Assembly: GCF_000230735.2 (NCBI RefSeq)
Contig: NC_019962.1
Coordinates: 186,001 to 250,000 of the forward strand
Reading direction: 5' to 3'
DNA length: 64,000 nucleotides
DNA from: Natrinema pellirubrum DSM 15624
GTDB taxonomy: Archaea > Halobacteriota > Halobacteria > Halobacteriales > Natrialbaceae
Shown here: positions 107 through 25,325 of the stretch, in pieces
How positions within the stretch are numbered: position 1 is the stretch's first letter
How the letters are laid out: each line of letters starts with the position of its first letter
The notes under the pieces: generated by a model
What the model was told of the DNA's origin: nothing
The model's input: only the letters and a program-made list of their open reading frames with translations
Databases searched by the model: none
Made by a program: the position numbers and the translations under genes

Positions 107-786
107 CGGTAATCGTCGAAGAATCCGAAGAGATCCGTCACCGCCGGATCGGTCCCGCGTCCGGAGTAGACGGCGAGCCGATCTCCGGCCCCGATTTCGG
201 TTGTCGACCGAGCGATCCGTGGCCCGCTGCCGTCCTGGGGGACGACAGCGACCACGAGTACATCGTCGGGAATCAAGCCCCCCGATCTGGCGTCCTCGAG
301 GGTCTTTCCGGCGATCGGTGCGGCGTCGGAGACCTTGATCTCGAAGACTTCCGCATCGTCTTCGACGGGCATGTAGTCGATAATCGCGGGCTGTCGTGCC
401 GTCCGGTAGAGCGATTCGGCGGCGAGTTGGTCGGGGCTTTTGACCGCGTTGACGCCCATCTTGCGGAACAGTTCCCGGTGTTCGGGTTGGTGCAGAACGG
501 ACACGACGGTCGGAATCCCGAGTTCGGTTGCGAGTAGACAGACGAACAGGTTCGTTGCGTCCAGTTCGCGCGTCGAGATGAGCGCATCGGCCCGAGCAGC
601 GCCCGCCTCTTTGAGCGTCTCCTCCCTCGTCGCGTCCTCGTTGAGGACCAGGCAATCGTACTCGTTCGCGATGTCGTTCGCTCTCGTCACGTCGTGCTCG
701 ACGACCACCACGTCGTTTCGAGATCGTGATGCAATATCCACTAGCAGGCGTCCGACATTCCCTGCCCCGACGACGATGAAGTGCAT
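103..786 (-). CDS. trkA: TrkA-type regulatory subunit of potassium uptake
   Basis: A 227-residue cytoplasmic protein with the RCK (TrkA-N) NAD-binding Rossmann fold, glycine motif GAGNVG at residues 7-12, and an acidic residue (E30) after the second strand that suits NAD(H). The second half (about 140-227) matches a TrkA-C ligand-binding domain. It is known to gate a partner TrkH membrane subunit. That partner starts at the overlapping ATGA and is truncated by the window edge. Full length for a single-RCK TrkA. Transcription runs away from the IS relic on its other side. Confidence 0.9.
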   Translation of the reverse strand: MHFIVVGAGNVGRLLVDIASRSRNDVVVVEHDVTRANDIANEYDCLVLNEDATREETLKEAGAARADALISTRELDATNLFVCLLATELGIPTVVSVLHQPEHRELFRKMGVNAVKSPDQLAAESLYRTARQPAIIDYMPVEDDAEVFEIKVSDAAPIAGKTLEDARSGGLIPDDVLVVAVVPQDGSGPRIARSTTEIGAGDRLAVYSGRGTDPAVTDLFGFFDDYR

Positions 787-20168: not shown

Positions 20169-20945
20169 TCAGTCGTCGGCTGCGGCATCGCTCTCGAGCG
20201 GTCCCTCGAGCGCCCGGTCACAGGTGGCATCGAGACAGCGGACCCCGCTGGCGGTTTCGAAGGTCGGCAGCCCACAGCCACACTCGCCGTCGACGACACC
20301 GGCGGGGACGGCGAAGCCGATCTCACAGTCGGGATAGTGTTCGCAGCCGGCGATGAGCCCGCCCCGCCGGAGGATCCGGAGATCGCCGTCGCAGTCCGGT
20401 TCGGGGCAGTTCCACTCGCGGTCGAAGGCCTCTTTGACCGCCGCGTCGAGCGATTCACAGCCCCGATCGAGACAGACGTTGAAGGCCAGCCCGCGCTCGA
20501 CGCGCATCTTGGGGAGGCCACAGTCGCAGTCACATTGGTCCCCCCGAACCGTCGCGTCGGCGGGGACGCCGTACTCGTCGCCACAGCCGACACAGTGGAC
20601 CCCGCTCGAGCGCACTAAGGTCCCGTCGCAGTCGGGACAGGTACCGATGGGGGTCCCGGCCGCCGACGAGGGGTAGTGGGCGAACCCGTCCTGGTCGTGG
20701 GCGGCGATCCGCAGCGTCTGGGTGTCCTTCTTGGCGACGAGGGTGAACCCGCCGGTTCGGTCGCTCGAGACGCTGTCGGCGCGGGTCAGCCACGCGACGG
20801 GCTGGTAGCCGTCGGTGTCGTGGACCAACACGGTGTTGTCGGGTTTGACGATCGTGGTCACTCGACCCCGATACTCCTCGCGGTCGCCGTTCTCGGCGAT
20901 GACGGTACAGTCACCCGCAAGCACGCGGATCGCGTCGTCGATCAT
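20169..20945 (-). CDS. NucS-N-like domain protein with zinc-ribbon repeats
   Basis: 258 residues. The N-terminal 75 residues (VLAGDCTVIAE, RGRVTTIVKPDNTVLVHD, DGYQPVAWLTR) resemble the DNA-binding N-domain of the mismatch endonuclease NucS/EndoMS (DUF91). Instead of the RecB-like nuclease core, the rest has about four Cys-rich units with paired CxxC motifs (CPDC, CVGC, CDCDC, CPEPDC, CEHYPDC, CGCG, CLDATC), like topoisomerase C4 zinc fingers. This predicts a nucleic-acid-binding protein with no nuclease site of its own. The family resemblance is by eye. Confidence 0.65.
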   Translation of the reverse strand: MIDDAIRVLAGDCTVIAENGDREEYRGRVTTIVKPDNTVLVHDTDGYQPVAWLTRADSVSSDRTGGFTLVAKKDTQTLRIAAHDQDGFAHYPSSAAGTPIGTCPDCDGTLVRSSGVHCVGCGDEYGVPADATVRGDQCDCDCGLPKMRVERGLAFNVCLDRGCESLDAAVKEAFDREWNCPEPDCDGDLRILRRGGLIAGCEHYPDCEIGFAVPAGVVDGECGCGLPTFETASGVRCLDATCDRALEGPLESDAAADD

Positions 20946-21032: not shown

Positions 21033-21731
21033 TCAGTCCGCGGTCGGTTCGGTCGCCGTCTCGTTGCCGTCGCCGGGGCCGCCGGCTCGGCCCTCACCAG
21101 GGGCGTCGACCGGGCCGCCGGGGCCGCGATCGGTCCCGATCGAACGACCGACGTCGTCGCCGGCGATCGAGCGGGCGATCGCGGCCGTTTCCGGGCCGCC
21201 GAGGTCGCCGGCTCGAGCCCGTAACTGCCCGATCGCCTCGGCGTCAACGTCGTTGTCGGCGAGCGCTCGGTCGGGGACCTCGGCCGCGGCGGTTTCGGCC
21301 GCGGCGGTCCGACGCTCGATACTCCGCATCTCGGCGACGGCCGTCGCGACTTCCGCCCGGTAGTGACCCTCGCTGATCTCGCCGGTTTCGCGGGACTCGT
21401 TCAGAGTCGCGAGCCGTGACTCGAGTTCCGCCAGTCGCTGCCGACTCTCGTTGACTTCCGTGGCGATGACGGCTGCTTTCGTCTCGTTCGTCTCGGCGCT
21501 GGCGAATCGCACGCTGAAGGCCCGCTCCGAGACGTCGCCCTCGAGTTCGGCGTTCTGGACGCCGACGGCCGCGGCGAACTGTTCGCCGGGGGCGATCGAG
21601 TCGTTGCCTGCCTCGTCGGCGGTCTCCTCCTGCGCGCCGCCGGTCGGGGCGACGGTCGCCGCAGCCAGCGGGACCGCGACCGCTGCGACGAGTATGACCG
21701 CGACGAGCGTGATCGATGTGGGTCGGTTCAT
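21033..21731 (-). CDS. Secreted alpha-helical protein (DUF7096-like)
   Basis: 232 residues. A signal peptide (about 1-26, ending AAATVA) is followed by a helical region (about 50-190) rich in Glu/Ala/Arg with coiled-coil character (ESRQRLAELESRLATLNESR) and a glycine-rich acidic tail. No C-terminal anchor or lipobox is seen, so it is probably released or peripheral. It lies just downstream, on the same strand, of a membrane protein carrying a winged helix (21882-23072). Function unknown. Confidence 0.75.
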   Translation of the reverse strand: MNRPTSITLVAVILVAAVAVPLAAATVAPTGGAQEETADEAGNDSIAPGEQFAAAVGVQNAELEGDVSERAFSVRFASAETNETKAAVIATEVNESRQRLAELESRLATLNESRETGEISEGHYRAEVATAVAEMRSIERRTAAAETAAAEVPDRALADNDVDAEAIGQLRARAGDLGGPETAAIARSIAGDDVGRSIGTDRGPGGPVDAPGEGRAGGPGDGNETATEPTAD

Positions 21732-21881
21732 TGGTGGTGAGTGTCGCTCGATCGATACCAGGCGGGGCGAGGACTTGGGGTCATCGACGGTTAACGCCGT
21801 TCAACGCCGTTTTCGATCCGGTTCCGTCCGGCGATTTCGACGGTTTTCGGCCCGCGAGCGTCTCGGTCGATCCGACGCGAG

Positions 21882-23072
21882 TCATTCGTCCTCATCTGCC
21901 GAGTCCGGGACGATTCCGTCGTCGACCTCGGGCAGCGAGAGGACGTTCTCGCGGCCGAGCCGGAACGACTCGAGCTTGCCGTCCTCGCGGAGCCCGCTGA
22001 CGACCTTGCTGGTCTTTGCGTCGGTCCAGTCCAGTTCCTCGACGACCGCCTGTTGTTTCATCCGGCCGCCCCGCTCCCTGACCAGCCGAAGGACCTGTTC
22101 CTCGTTGCTCAGCAGTTCCGTGTCGACCTGTTCGGTCGTGCCCGCGGCCGCGGTCGCGGCGTCGCTTGCCGGGGCCGACACGTCCGCCGGACTCGAGTCG
22201 CCGGTCGACGCGGTCTCGGCAGCCGATCCGGATGGAGACTCGATGTCGGCACCGGATGCGGACCCGCCCCCGGAGCCGGCCGCAGGGGTCCCGTCGCCGG
22301 GCTGATCAGCCGTCGGCTCGCGGTTCCGGTACCACCACGTGCCGGCGGCTCCGAGGCCGAGCAGGACGATCGCCACACCCGCGATCAACAGCGGACTCGA
22401 GCCGGTCGCGCCGCTCCCGGCGGTGACGACGACGCGGGGTTCGTCGTCGACGAAGTCGGTGTCGTCACCCCGCCAGATCACGGCCCGCTCGCGTTCGTCG
22501 TCCGGGTCGGGCGCGACCGACGTCCGCTCGTAGCCCTCGGGCCACTCGATCAGCAGTCGGGTGCCGTCGTCGAGGTAGAGTCCCGCGACGGCGTCGCCGG
22601 CCCGGAGCCGGTCGCCATCGACGGCGGCGAACCCGTCCCAGCGGAACGTGTACCTGACGACGCCGTACTCGCGGGCGAACGACTGGCGCTCGGTCTCGAC
22701 GGCGACATCGGTGGCGGCCATCTCCCGCCCGGTCGCGTTGCTCGCCGTCGCGACCGTCCCGTTCATCCGCTCGGCGAACCGCGCCGTGTGGTTTGCCGGA
22801 TCCTCCCGGATATCGTCGCGTAACGACTCGAACGCCGCCTCGCTCTCGTTGTCGTCGAGCCGGATCCAGAACTCGAGGGTCCAGTCGGCGCTGCCGTCGG
22901 CCCGGAGCGCGACGTCCATCCGGACCTCGTCGGCGTCGATCCCGTCCTGCTGGAGGGTAAACGGCTCCGACTGGCTCCCGCCCGTCGCCGCCGCTCCGGT
23001 AGCTGCGACGGGACCGGCAGTCACGAGGAGTATCACGACGACCGCGACCGTCACGCCGGCGCGACCGTTCAT
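21882..23072 (-). CDS. Membrane protein with external domain and cytoplasmic winged helix
   Basis: 396 residues: signal peptide (1-24), external beta-rich domain (about 40-225, with VRMDVALRADGSADWTLEFWIRL), one transmembrane helix (about 228-248), a low-complexity cytoplasmic linker (about 250-320), and a C-terminal winged helix (about 325-380: LLSNEEQVLRLVRERGGRMKQQAVVEELDWTDAKTSKVVSGL). The layout fits a one-component transmembrane regulator that senses something outside and binds DNA inside. Similar architectures (DUF7345/DUF7343) occur across haloarchaea. Targets unknown; the secreted gene downstream is a candidate. Confidence 0.85.
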   Translation of the reverse strand: MNGRAGVTVAVVVILLVTAGPVAATGAAATGGSQSEPFTLQQDGIDADEVRMDVALRADGSADWTLEFWIRLDDNESEAAFESLRDDIREDPANHTARFAERMNGTVATASNATGREMAATDVAVETERQSFAREYGVVRYTFRWDGFAAVDGDRLRAGDAVAGLYLDDGTRLLIEWPEGYERTSVAPDPDDERERAVIWRGDDTDFVDDEPRVVVTAGSGATGSSPLLIAGVAIVLLGLGAAGTWWYRNREPTADQPGDGTPAAGSGGGSASGADIESPSGSAAETASTGDSSPADVSAPASDAATAAAGTTEQVDTELLSNEEQVLRLVRERGGRMKQQAVVEELDWTDAKTSKVVSGLREDGKLESFRLGRENVLSLPEVDDGIVPDSADEDE

Positions 23073-23183: not shown

Positions 23184-23429
23184 TCACTCGCCGTTACCGT
23201 TCGGGATGGCCGCGACATCACCGGGCGTAACGCTCCGGATGGCCTCGCCGACGGCCTTGAGGGCACCGTCGAGGACGTCGGTGATCGTTTCGAGGAGGTC
23301 GGAGACGAAGTCCGGAACCCGATCGGGCAGGTCACTCGGCGGGCCGTCCGCGGGCTGTGCTGCCGCGACACCGGTCGCGCCGAGGATGAGAGTCAGTGCA
23401 ACCGCGATCGTGAGTATCGGTCGTTGCAT
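23184..23429 (-). CDS. Small secreted protein, paralogue of the 24479-25018 product
   Basis: 81 residues from ATG 23427-23429: a signal peptide (1-24, ending GVAAAQ), then a short mature region, DLPDRVPDFVSDLLETITDVLDGALKAVGEAIRSVTPGD. The mature core aligns with DLPEQAPDHVSAIHDRISAFLSG..ETSLGDAISEVTPDD of the gene at 24479-25018, so the two are paralogues. No cysteines. Function unknown. Confidence 0.7.
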   Translation of the reverse strand: MQRPILTIAVALTLILGATGVAAAQPADGPPSDLPDRVPDFVSDLLETITDVLDGALKAVGEAIRSVTPGDVAAIPNGNGE

Positions 23430-23556
23430 CACGGCTCGAGCGTGGCGGCTCACCCCTATCAACCGGCCAGTCGGTGACCGCGATTTGTGCCGATTTGAGC
23501 CGGATGTCGCCACCGTCGGCTGGGTATTGATCGCCGTCGGCCGATGGCGGGGCCGC

Positions 23557-23907
23557 TTACGCCCCCGGGACGCCGAACGCCCCGACGCCGAGTCCGAAGA
23601 CGGCGTTGAGGACGAACAGGATCGCGATCGCGGCGAGCCACGCGATGAACCCGATGGCCGCGGCCACCCCCCAGCCGCCGGGGTAGCGCCAGTTGATCAC
23701 CCACACCCAGGCGATTAGGGCGAGGATCGGGCCGAAAAGCGGGATCCACGCGGTCAGCCCCCACGCGAACCCGCCGAGGATCGCCGTGACGAACGCGTGC
23801 GAGTAGTCGTCCACGTCGGCGACGACCCGCGCGCTGGCGTAGATCGCCAGCCCGCCGACTATCAGTGCGACCAGAAACGCGACGAACGAGCCGACGATGG
23901 AAACCAT
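23557..23907 (-). CDS. Four-helix membrane protein, paralogue of the 24080-24454 product
   Basis: 116 residues, mostly hydrophobic, with about four transmembrane helices. Shared with the neighbour at 24080-24454: a VVAxxxDYxHAxVTA segment, a PLxGxxLAxxAWxxVxxWRY segment and the C-terminal ending GVPG. The duplicated pair sits between the two paralogous secreted genes. Function unknown. Confidence 0.75.
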   Translation of the reverse strand: MVSIVGSFVAFLVALIVGGLAIYASARVVADVDDYSHAFVTAILGGFAWGLTAWIPLFGPILALIAWVWVINWRYPGGWGVAAAIGFIAWLAAIAILFVLNAVFGLGVGAFGVPGA

Positions 23908-24079
23908 ACGAACCGGTACGCTTTCAATACACTTGATACCTCCCTCGCGATAACCGCCCGCGTGAGGCTGTCACCGCCGGGGAGACGGCTCGTAGACGGT
24001 AGTGTTCGGAAGAAGCGTCAGCGGGGTGGTGGGGGATACGTCAGCGGGACAGGTACGGAACCGTCAGCGGGAGCGCGAT

Positions 24080-24454
24080 TCAGGTGCCCGGCACGCCGAG
24101 CGCCGACACCGAGCCGATACCGACCAGCTCGAGGGCCGCGAGGACGACCACGGCGGCCGCCCAGGCGGCGACGCCGACACCGGCCGAGCGGAGCCAGCCG
24201 AGGCCGTAGCGCCACTTGACGACCGCGATCCAGGCGACGATCGCCAGCAGGCCGCCGATCAGTGGCACCGACTCGAGGACCGCCCAGGCGAGGGCGGCCA
24301 GCAGCGCGGTCACCACCGCGTGGCCGTAATCGCGGGTCTCGGCGACGACGTAGGTGCCGGCCTGGAGGGCCGCGCCGCCGACCAGCAGGCTCACCGCAAA
24401 CGCCAGCAGTCGGTCCTCGAGTCCGATCGGTGCCGGCTGTGCGAATGGGGGCAT
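24080..24454 (-). CDS. Four-helix membrane protein, second copy
   Basis: 124 residues, the paralogue of the 23557-23907 product. It carries a longer N-terminus (MPPFAQPAPIGLEDR) and ends SALGVPGT. It starts only 24 nt after the stop of the secreted acidic protein gene upstream (24479-25018), so those two are probably co-transcribed. Function unknown. Confidence 0.75.
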   Translation of the reverse strand: MPPFAQPAPIGLEDRLLAFAVSLLVGGAALQAGTYVVAETRDYGHAVVTALLAALAWAVLESVPLIGGLLAIVAWIAVVKWRYGLGWLRSAGVGVAAWAAAVVVLAALELVGIGSVSALGVPGT

Positions 24455-24478
24455 AGGTGTGTAGCGTTACCGGGTGGT

Positions 24479-25018
24479 CTATTCGTCGGTCGAGTCGTCG
24501 GTTTCGTCGTCAGCGTCTTCGTCGGCGGTGTCGCCGGCGTTGCTCTCGTCTGACTGTTCGTCGTCGGTTTCGTCGTCAGCGTCGTTGTCCTCGTCGGTGG
24601 TGTCGTCGGCGTCGCTCTCGTCGGAGTCGTCACCGCTCTCGGTCGCGTCATCTTCGTCGGCAGCGTCCTCGTCGTCCGGCGTGACCTCACTGATCGCGTC
24701 GCCGAGCGAGGTCTCGAGGTCGCCGCTCAGGAACGCCGAGATCCGGTCGTGGATCGCGGAGACGTGGTCGGGGGCCTGCTCAGGGAGGTCGACGGCGGGC
24801 CCCTGGCCGTTCCGGTCGTCAGCGCCGGCGGCTCCGTTCTCGCTGCCGTTGTCGTGGTCGTCTGCGGATCCTGCGCGGTCGTTCGCAGGGTGGTCGTCGG
24901 CAGTACTGTCCGCGCCCGTGTCCACGGAGACGGGCGCGGAGCCGGGTGCCGCGGCGGCGAACCCGGTGGCTGCGATCAATGCGGCGAGTGCGACTGCGAT
25001 GATGGTCGTTCGGTTCAT
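24479..25018 (-). CDS. Secreted protein with long Asp/Glu/Thr/Ser tail
   Basis: 179 residues from ATG 25016-25018 (an ATG three codons earlier is also possible). Signal peptide (1-24), acidic linker, the conserved core DLPEQAPDHVSAIHDRISAF (about 75-115), then a tail of about 65 residues made of irregular DDETDD/ESDADD/TADEDAD units. At DNA level the tail is a TCGTCGG-like low-complexity stretch at 24481-24680, prone to length change by slippage. Paralogue of the 23184-23429 product, which lacks the tail. Confidence 0.75.
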   Translation of the reverse strand: MNRTTIIAVALAALIAATGFAAAAPGSAPVSVDTGADSTADDHPANDRAGSADDHDNGSENGAAGADDRNGQGPAVDLPEQAPDHVSAIHDRISAFLSGDLETSLGDAISEVTPDDEDAADEDDATESGDDSDESDADDTTDEDNDADDETDDEQSDESNAGDTADEDADDETDDSTDE

Positions 25019-25325
25019 AGCTCGCATCCGATTCTCGGCGGGTCGACGCACTTGAAGGGGTGATGCCGTGAACGCGCTTTGCCGCCGTTTTCGGGAGTTT
25101 GACCGACGGTTTCGCCCGTTTGTGCCCGGTTTACCGCGATCCGAGTGCTGGGGAGTCGGCGACACCCGGGCGACTCCGGCGCGACGACGGGACGGCGCGT
25201 CGCGCGACACGTGCCGCCGCCTCGAGCGGGCCGATCGGCGGCTCGGGACGAGCGATCGAGCGGGGCGTCCAGCGACGGCTGCCGAAGACACAAACGGCTT
25301 TGCTCGTCGCCGGCGACGAGGAGGT
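25019..25325. other. Intergenic region between divergent genes
   Basis: 307 nt between the acidic secreted protein (minus) and the DJ-1/PfpI gene (plus). Frames are open on both strands because of high GC, but none has family character or a good start. No TATA box is obvious for either gene. Confidence 0.35.

Follow-up and report, generated by a model that had tools for sequence, protein, structure and literature searches.

The window analyzed here is a stretch of 64,000 nucleotides of Natrinema pellirubrum DSM 15624 (NC_019962.1, positions 186,001 to 250,000), in which a first-pass annotation had singled out four small minus-strand genes and described them as two paralogous pairs, each of a secreted and a membrane protein, that had arisen by duplication of a pair in inverted order. 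An ORF check of the window finds all four, here designated S1, M1, M2 and S2, open on the minus strand, with two further genes of the same strand, R and D, lying downstream. Their coordinates, together with those of the promoter features described below, are collected in Table 1.

Table 1. Genes and promoter features of the S-M-M-S-R-D cluster, in positions of the window unless residues are given
Feature	Position	Strand	Description
S1 phased array	25087..25132	(-)	AA[AT][CT] units at 25132, 25121, 25112, 25100 and 25090; spacings 11, 9, 12, 10
TATA/BRE-like CCCCTTCAAGT	25050..25060	(-)	kept in most S1 promoters (by eye)
S1	24479..25018	(-)	secreted, 179 aa, signal peptide, core GPxxDLPEQxPDHVS...VTPDD, long acidic tail
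M1	24080..24454	(-)	small multi-helix membrane protein, S-linked M lineage
M2	23557..23907	(-)	M1 paralogue; stand-alone M lineage found across Halobacteria
S2 short array	23483..23496	(-)	two units, 10 bp apart
S2	23184..23429	(-)	compact secreted S1 paralogue, 81 aa; one strongly amphipathic helix, residues 40-67
R	21882..23072	(-)	DUF7345 ectodomain 54-181, DUF7343 helix-turn-helix 320-381 (Pfam)
R hydrophobic parts	residues 1-31, 220-248		signal peptide or first helix; membrane helix (hydropathy)
D phased array	21788..21846	(-)	units at about -115, -105, -94, -81, -70 and -60 from the start codon; third, fifth and sixth by eye
D	21033..21731	(-)	secreted DUF7096-like protein; 21.1 bits, under the 27-bit Pfam cut-off

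Pairwise protein alignment gives 50 identities over 109 positions for M1 and M2 (46%, E 4e-28) and 21 over 47 for S1 and S2 (45% over 47 aa, E 5e-8), the likeness of the latter two being confined to the core GPxxDLPxxxPDxVS...VTPxD. The first-pass annotation, which had noted the shared DLP...PD.VS...VTP motifs and had staked its pairing on S1 and S2 aligning better than chance, as they do, thus described the two paralogous pairs correctly, and its assignment of secreted and membrane character agrees with hydropathy, by which the N termini of S1 and S2 are signal-peptide-like and M1 and M2 each carry several hydrophobic segments. None of the four proteins reaches a cut-off in searches of Pfam and NCBIfam. 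DUF7473 and DUF2953, like M families of small membrane proteins, give weak matches in 7 and 12, respectively, of 87 M members, with best E-values near 0.005 and, in one member, 17.9 bits for DUF7473 against a cut-off of 27, and M belongs to neither. The AlphaFold2 model of M2 consists of four helices (mean pLDDT 70), and its comparison with structures returned no usable fold match in Foldseek (best E 0.95) or in VIA-align (best Z 8.1, to TqsA, among unrelated rows); with a model of such modest confidence and fold matches of this kind, reading the function of M from structure was dropped. The structure model of S is confident only for helix 40-67. The helical moment of S2 is 0.62, a value equalled in 0 of 10,000 shuffles, and that of the S1 core is 0.17, which is not unusual, so that amphipathicity is established for S2 only. 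What S and M do we can only infer.

R exceeds the Pfam cut-offs for both of its domains (DUF7345, 111.4 bits against 27.5; DUF7343, 98.3 against 27.6). D is called DUF7096-like because it scores under the cut-off of that family; among its relatives, those at L262 and L269 pass this cut-off and those at L266 and L276 have no DUF7096 match. In all 19 named Natrialbaceae loci (L071-L088 and L117) S1 is followed by R and then D on the same strand. M is present at 16 of these, two M at 11, two or more S at nine and a DUF4382 lipoprotein at seven. S-R-D is therefore the steadier unit, between the members of which M1, M2, S2 and the DUF4382 lipoprotein come and go. Thus, the steady neighbours of S in this family are R and D, both outside the four-gene stretch from which the first-pass annotation had drawn its S-M partnership. 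One MAG contig titled Natrialbaceae (L099) carries S without R, D or M. At 32 S loci outside the Natrialbaceae, in the genera listed, neither R nor M occurs within about 3.5 kb of S, a DUF4382 lipoprotein stands beside S in nine and a DUF7490-like protein in four.

Several observations concern the same families elsewhere. All 59 class genomes searched for DUF7345 have it, as do all 79 searched for DUF7096, and many class genomes hold a second, divergently transcribed DUF7345-DUF7096 pair (for example G052:C1:1944832-1946334 and G040:C4:88422-89805), the R loci examined there having no phased array. A tblastn search of the window found no DUF4382 lipoprotein in its S-R-D cluster, and the only copy found in the genome lies about 96 kb away (C1:113871-114377). 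In Natrinema salsiterrestre (L078:11335-12135) a third S and a second DUF4382 lipoprotein follow D, so that the S-lipoprotein pair recurs within one locus. Adjoining D in the window, at 20169-20945 on the minus strand, is a gene whose product weakly matches the NucS N-terminal domain and a topoisomerase zinc ribbon.

Upstream of S1 in the Natrialbaceae, AAA[CT] units are spaced 10 or 11 bp apart from about -115 to -60 relative to the start codon, just upstream of CCCCTTCAAGT. Of the 26 distinct S1 regions, four to six such units stand in a row in 20, and three units in another three; the 21 S2 regions include five with three or more units and 15 with two. No chain of three or more AAA[CT] units occurs in 5,108 stretches of 150 bp from both strands of this window, and the upstream regions of M1 and M2 in the window are without an array. 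The S1 array of the window is irregular, its regular form being seen in the relative L073, and two strict array patterns accordingly find no match at S1 in the genome it belongs to. Chains of four or more AA[AT][CT] units number 53 at spacings of 10-11 bp in 1.34 Mb of sequence, which is redundant and was gathered mostly for S or M, against 0, 3, 0, 0, 1, 0, 5 and 0 at eight other spacings in the same sequence. Among the 39 distinct chains listed, 38 precede S, as judged by position. The chain at L122:996-1032 is the only listed one of four or more units that is not before an S gene. When 16 Natrinema genomes were scanned with AAACN{6,7}AAAYN{6,7}AAAY, 89 matches were obtained against 16 for the reversed control, with S1 promoters accounting for matches in 14 genomes (by locus or position; G246 is not among them) and with no match at S1 in the genome of the window. 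Other chains of four or more units were found at L231, L241, L246 and L242 only, among 30 Natrinema loci examined. GAAAC repeated every 11 bp, in four to five units, is seen at L231 and L246 (G025:C33:69527-69563) and at L241 (G192:C1:3276387-3276434); in some Natrinema genomes this repeat lies upstream of an isoleucyl-tRNA-synthetase-like gene (named by eye).

The D promoters of the Natrialbaceae carry the same periodicity. In 20 of them, that of the window included, AA pairs number 59, 58 and 56 at lags 9-11, compared to some 15 ± 4 in shuffled sequence (at lag 10, 58 against 14.5 ± 4.1). The corresponding counts for 20 R promoters are 7, 9 and 9 against about 7 (9 against 7.0 at lag 10), that is, no array; a single count of 20 at lag 12 in these promoters is without explanation.

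The array extends beyond the Natrialbaceae. In 53 S promoters from outside this family, 185 AA pairs occur at lag 10 against 36.9 ± 5.6 in dinucleotide shuffles, a comparison whose z-scores are overstated since related sequences are not independent, although the promoters come from many genera. Further peaks appear at lags 20-21 (103 and 105) and 31 (95), with troughs between, and 243 upstream regions of other ORFs from the same loci, taken as control, give 12.7 at lag 10 after scaling. The unit here approximates TTAA[AT][CT]CGG, with G and C positions preferred beside the AA. A scan of 79 other genomes with TTAAWYSGGN{1,2}TTAAWYSGG yielded 30 places against 3 control matches, and 25 of the 30 belong to S, D or DUF4382 genes: 13 S (with weak scores at L257 and L260, E 3e-4 and 9e-4), seven D (L248, L262, L263, L266, L268, L269 and L276, of which L266 and L276 are assigned by motif only) and five DUF4382 (L250, L256 and L273 by Pfam, L254 and L255 by likeness). 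The remaining places comprise two secreted Ig-like proteins and three without an assignment. The D and DUF4382 genes found by the scan are not beside S in the stretches examined, while the same families cluster with S in the Natrialbaceae. Twenty D-like loci of other families, chosen by protein homology, provided 12 usable promoters, seven of which carry three or more chained units compared to 18 of 1,638 control windows, with a unit that had been broadened after the D promoters were seen and with two of the 12 (L345 and L346) overlapping places found by pattern. In many of these D-like promoters the array is followed, at a short distance, by a plain TTTATAT or TTATAT. The R loci sampled from other families show no chain of three or more units.

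The phased element thus belongs to S and D genes, in the Natrialbaceae and in other families, and to some DUF4382 genes, and not to R or M; its S and D units are AA-rich, follow each other at one helical turn (10-11 bp) so as to share a face of the DNA, and stand just upstream of a TATA-like region. Searches of openly licensed literature on the DUF names, on helical phasing in archaea, on phased A-tracts in haloarchaea and on membrane-bound regulators listed no description of the element.

Such an array could be a structural signal, by which phased AA units bend the DNA or position histones or another chromatin protein, in place of a row of operators for one regulator. AAA and AAAA units one turn apart do resemble the phased A-tracts that bend DNA, and some promoters, such as that at L062, hold A4-A5 tracts. 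A packing signal would be widespread, whereas the chains found are almost confined to the promoters of S, D and DUF4382 genes and of a few further secreted ones, and the preference for G and C at set positions beside the AA in the unit outside the Natrialbaceae likewise argues against a structural signal. We consider the structural account unlikely.

The reading that we favor, and for which we see the case as evenly balanced, is that S-M-M-S-R-D is an envelope module in which promoters of a common kind, with an operator phased at one turn, drive the secreted members. In it, a regulator would bind the row of units cooperatively and so govern the expression of a set of proteins that are secreted or lie at the surface. 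The prime candidate for this regulator would be R, the only DNA-binding protein of the module, a proposal made with less assurance from its linkage; its DUF7345 ectodomain might serve as the sensor of external signals and its helix-turn-helix, if cytoplasmic, as the effector. Since R is absent near the 32 S loci outside the Natrialbaceae, the case for R as the regulator comes mainly from linkage in one family. Least certain is the part given to S: the mature protein may be small and acidic, with a core helix that docks on an envelope partner, which might be M1 where M1 is present and elsewhere the DUF4382 lipoprotein or the DUF7490-like protein. From gene order, S1 and M1 may act together. Speaking against the module are the R promoters, which have no array, the irregularity of the array at the window's own S1 and the contig with S and none of R, D and M.

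A variant would make S a ligand or inhibitor of R as well, the secreted protein binding the DUF7345 ectodomain and feeding back on the regulon. It draws on the position of the S gene beside that of R in every one of the 19 named Natrialbaceae loci, with M and without it, and fits poorly with the 32 loci sampled outside this family, where S does not adjoin R; we hold it to be doubtful. In its widest form the favored reading becomes a class-wide envelope regulon, in which R, as a membrane-tethered one-component regulator, would sit side by side on one-turn operators and switch on S, D and DUF4382 genes, with S and M1 forming an envelope complex in some lineages. This extension is tentative, and we would not expect it to hold in full.

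The arrangement of the four genes calls for an account of its own. Other Natrinema genomes (L012, L013, L014, L015, L020 and L052) retain the order S-M-M-S, which hence is not a chance reading; S2 is missing from the cluster at L016, L017 and L019, and a DUF4382 lipoprotein lies between M1 and M2 at L072, L074, L078 and L085. A tree of 102 M rows places M2 as a single group within a stand-alone M clan, and M1 with the S-linked M of Haloferax and Halospeciosus; the same grouping comes from a 121-row tree, in which the deepest split is less well supported (78). A 43-row tree places all S-linked M, together with one stand-alone relative, on one side of a branch with 99/98 support, and M2 in an 18-row clan (99/96) with stand-alone M of several families. 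Forcing the Natrialbaceae M1 and M2 into one clade of this tree costs 64.9 log units and is rejected (AU p 3e-56), while holding all S-linked M, and so all M1, together with M2 costs 13.2 log units and is not rejected (AU p 0.11); a quick tree with a single S-linked M from another family gives p 0.52 for M1 and M2 together and so does not decide. Identities agree with the separation of M1 and M2, with M2 at 63-78% to the stand-alone clan, M1 at 43-52% to M2 and M1 at 55-70% to S-linked M of other families. By these sequence comparisons M1 is assigned to an older S-linked lineage and M2 to a stand-alone lineage spread across Halobacteria. S2-type genes adjoin R without M in other genera (L051, L053, L057, L062 and L064), and together with the trees and identities this makes old paralogues brought together the best reading of the S-M-M-S order. 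Older M and S paralogues would have gathered upstream of R-D, with no copying of a pair.

The first-pass annotation had rightly held that this order is not a simple tandem copy; its further claim, that a pair was duplicated, is not supported, given the grouping of M1 with S-linked M of other families and of M2 with stand-alone M found throughout the class. A local inverted duplication, in which a Natrinema ancestor gained a reversed copy of an S-M pair alongside the original and the two then diverged, would explain why two paralogous pairs stand side by side, and the tests at p 0.52 and p 0.11 leave it some room. All four genes are nevertheless on the same strand, which an inverted copy would not give; M1 and M2 are neither in opposite orientation nor, in the Natrialbaceae clade test, exclusive sisters; M2 is closer to stand-alone M elsewhere than to M1, and S2-type genes occur next to R without M. 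We regard such a duplication as very improbable. Simple duplication of an S-M pair was likewise put aside as the main reading on the trees and identities, the tests at p 0.52 and p 0.11 excepted.

Both families are common in the class: M occurs in 188 of the 242 genomes (67 of 74 genera) and S in 145 (43 of 74 genera), where S mostly has one to three copies. Both are present in 108 genomes, M only in 80, S only in 37 and neither in 17, so that co-presence across the 242 genomes shows no association (Fisher p 0.16). The genome of the window (4.35 Mb, 3 contigs) has two S copies with clear scores, both in the window cluster, and four M copies, two in the window and two alone. The stand-alone copies (G000:C1:338910-339245 and C1:3404920-3405270) represent two further M sub-lineages. 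Neighbours common to stand-alone M show no envelope theme, with a peptidase and other neighbours recurring in sub-clades only. In three of 79 non-Natrialbaceae genomes that hold both (G134, G094 and G236), M follows directly on S on the same strand, where about 0.08 would be expected by chance, and S-then-M is also seen in Haloferax marinum (L096) and Halospeciosus (L105). The S-M pair is therefore real and recurrent, and not general: most S genes have no adjoining M. Searching for the pair in other haloarchaea, as the first-pass annotation had proposed, thus bears out its existence, and the suggestion that the two proteins work together is weakened as a general rule by the lack of association and the many S genes that stand without M. 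An S gene also lies on a contig of a Candidatus Nanohalarchaeota MAG (L112:5806-6315), through transfer, as a host contig or by contamination.

That S is a secreted, halocin-like peptide toxin, with M as the immunity protein in the membrane and the two pairs as two toxin-immunity sets, is very improbable: a small secreted product, amphipathic in S2, does stand beside a small multi-helix membrane protein, and S is upstream of M in several families, but no M match was obtained in 37 of the 145 S genomes and no S in 80 of the 188 M genomes, S is too widespread and too steady in copy number for a sporadic weapon, and its promoter element is common to D and DUF4382 lipoproteins. A bacteriocin with its immunity protein is disfavoured by distribution, S and M not travelling together (p 0.16).

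The first-pass interpretation is thus partly supported, its observation being right and its duplication reading not, and the more interesting feature is the phased array common to secreted families across haloarchaea. This shared promoter element suggests that a group of co-regulated surface genes has gone unrecognised, in a field where little is known of the ways in which archaea monitor and remodel their surface. The S and M proteins tested remain under all Pfam cut-offs despite the occurrence of their families in 145 and 188 of 242 genomes. If the element is a true operator, three poorly known families of secreted proteins and lipoproteins, together with a membrane-bound helix-turn-helix protein, would make up one regulon in genetically tractable haloarchaea; if the class-wide regulon of R were real, it would be an archaeal counterpart of the envelope-stress systems of bacteria.

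Comparison with described proteins places R with those that combine PF24036 (DUF7345) and PF24034 (DUF7343), as it carries both domains over cut-off. HVO_0306 and HVO_1944 of Haloferax volcanii, each a 'probable transmembrane glycoprotein/HTH domain protein', are glycosylated according to the accessible part of PMC8241124 and, going by that description, may be relatives of R; HVO_1944 is listed with a CdrS binding motif in the portion at hand of PMC8406309. HVO_1030 is given in the same part of PMC8241124 as an N-glycosylated DUF4382 lipoprotein. Lipoproteins of this family (PF14321) stand beside S in several families and carry the phased element elsewhere, and none is encoded in the window cluster. 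For Lrp-type regulators, of which HVO_A0307/HVO_0307 is one in the excerpted text of PMC6801745, no gene of the Lrp family was identified with the S-M-M-S-R-D module. The archaeal members Ss-LrpB, BarR and Ptr2 bind cooperatively, near the promoter, to multiple sites aligned on one face of the helix and spaced two or three helical turns apart, as described in the available part of PMC2995911. As far as that account goes, the S and D arrays resemble Lrp operators in having multiple helically aligned sites (lags 10, 20-21 and 31 in S promoters), and differ from them in that direct units follow each other at one turn, up to six in a row. This spacing is tighter than the two or three turns of Lrp sites and, were the element a true operator, would raise a clear structural question.
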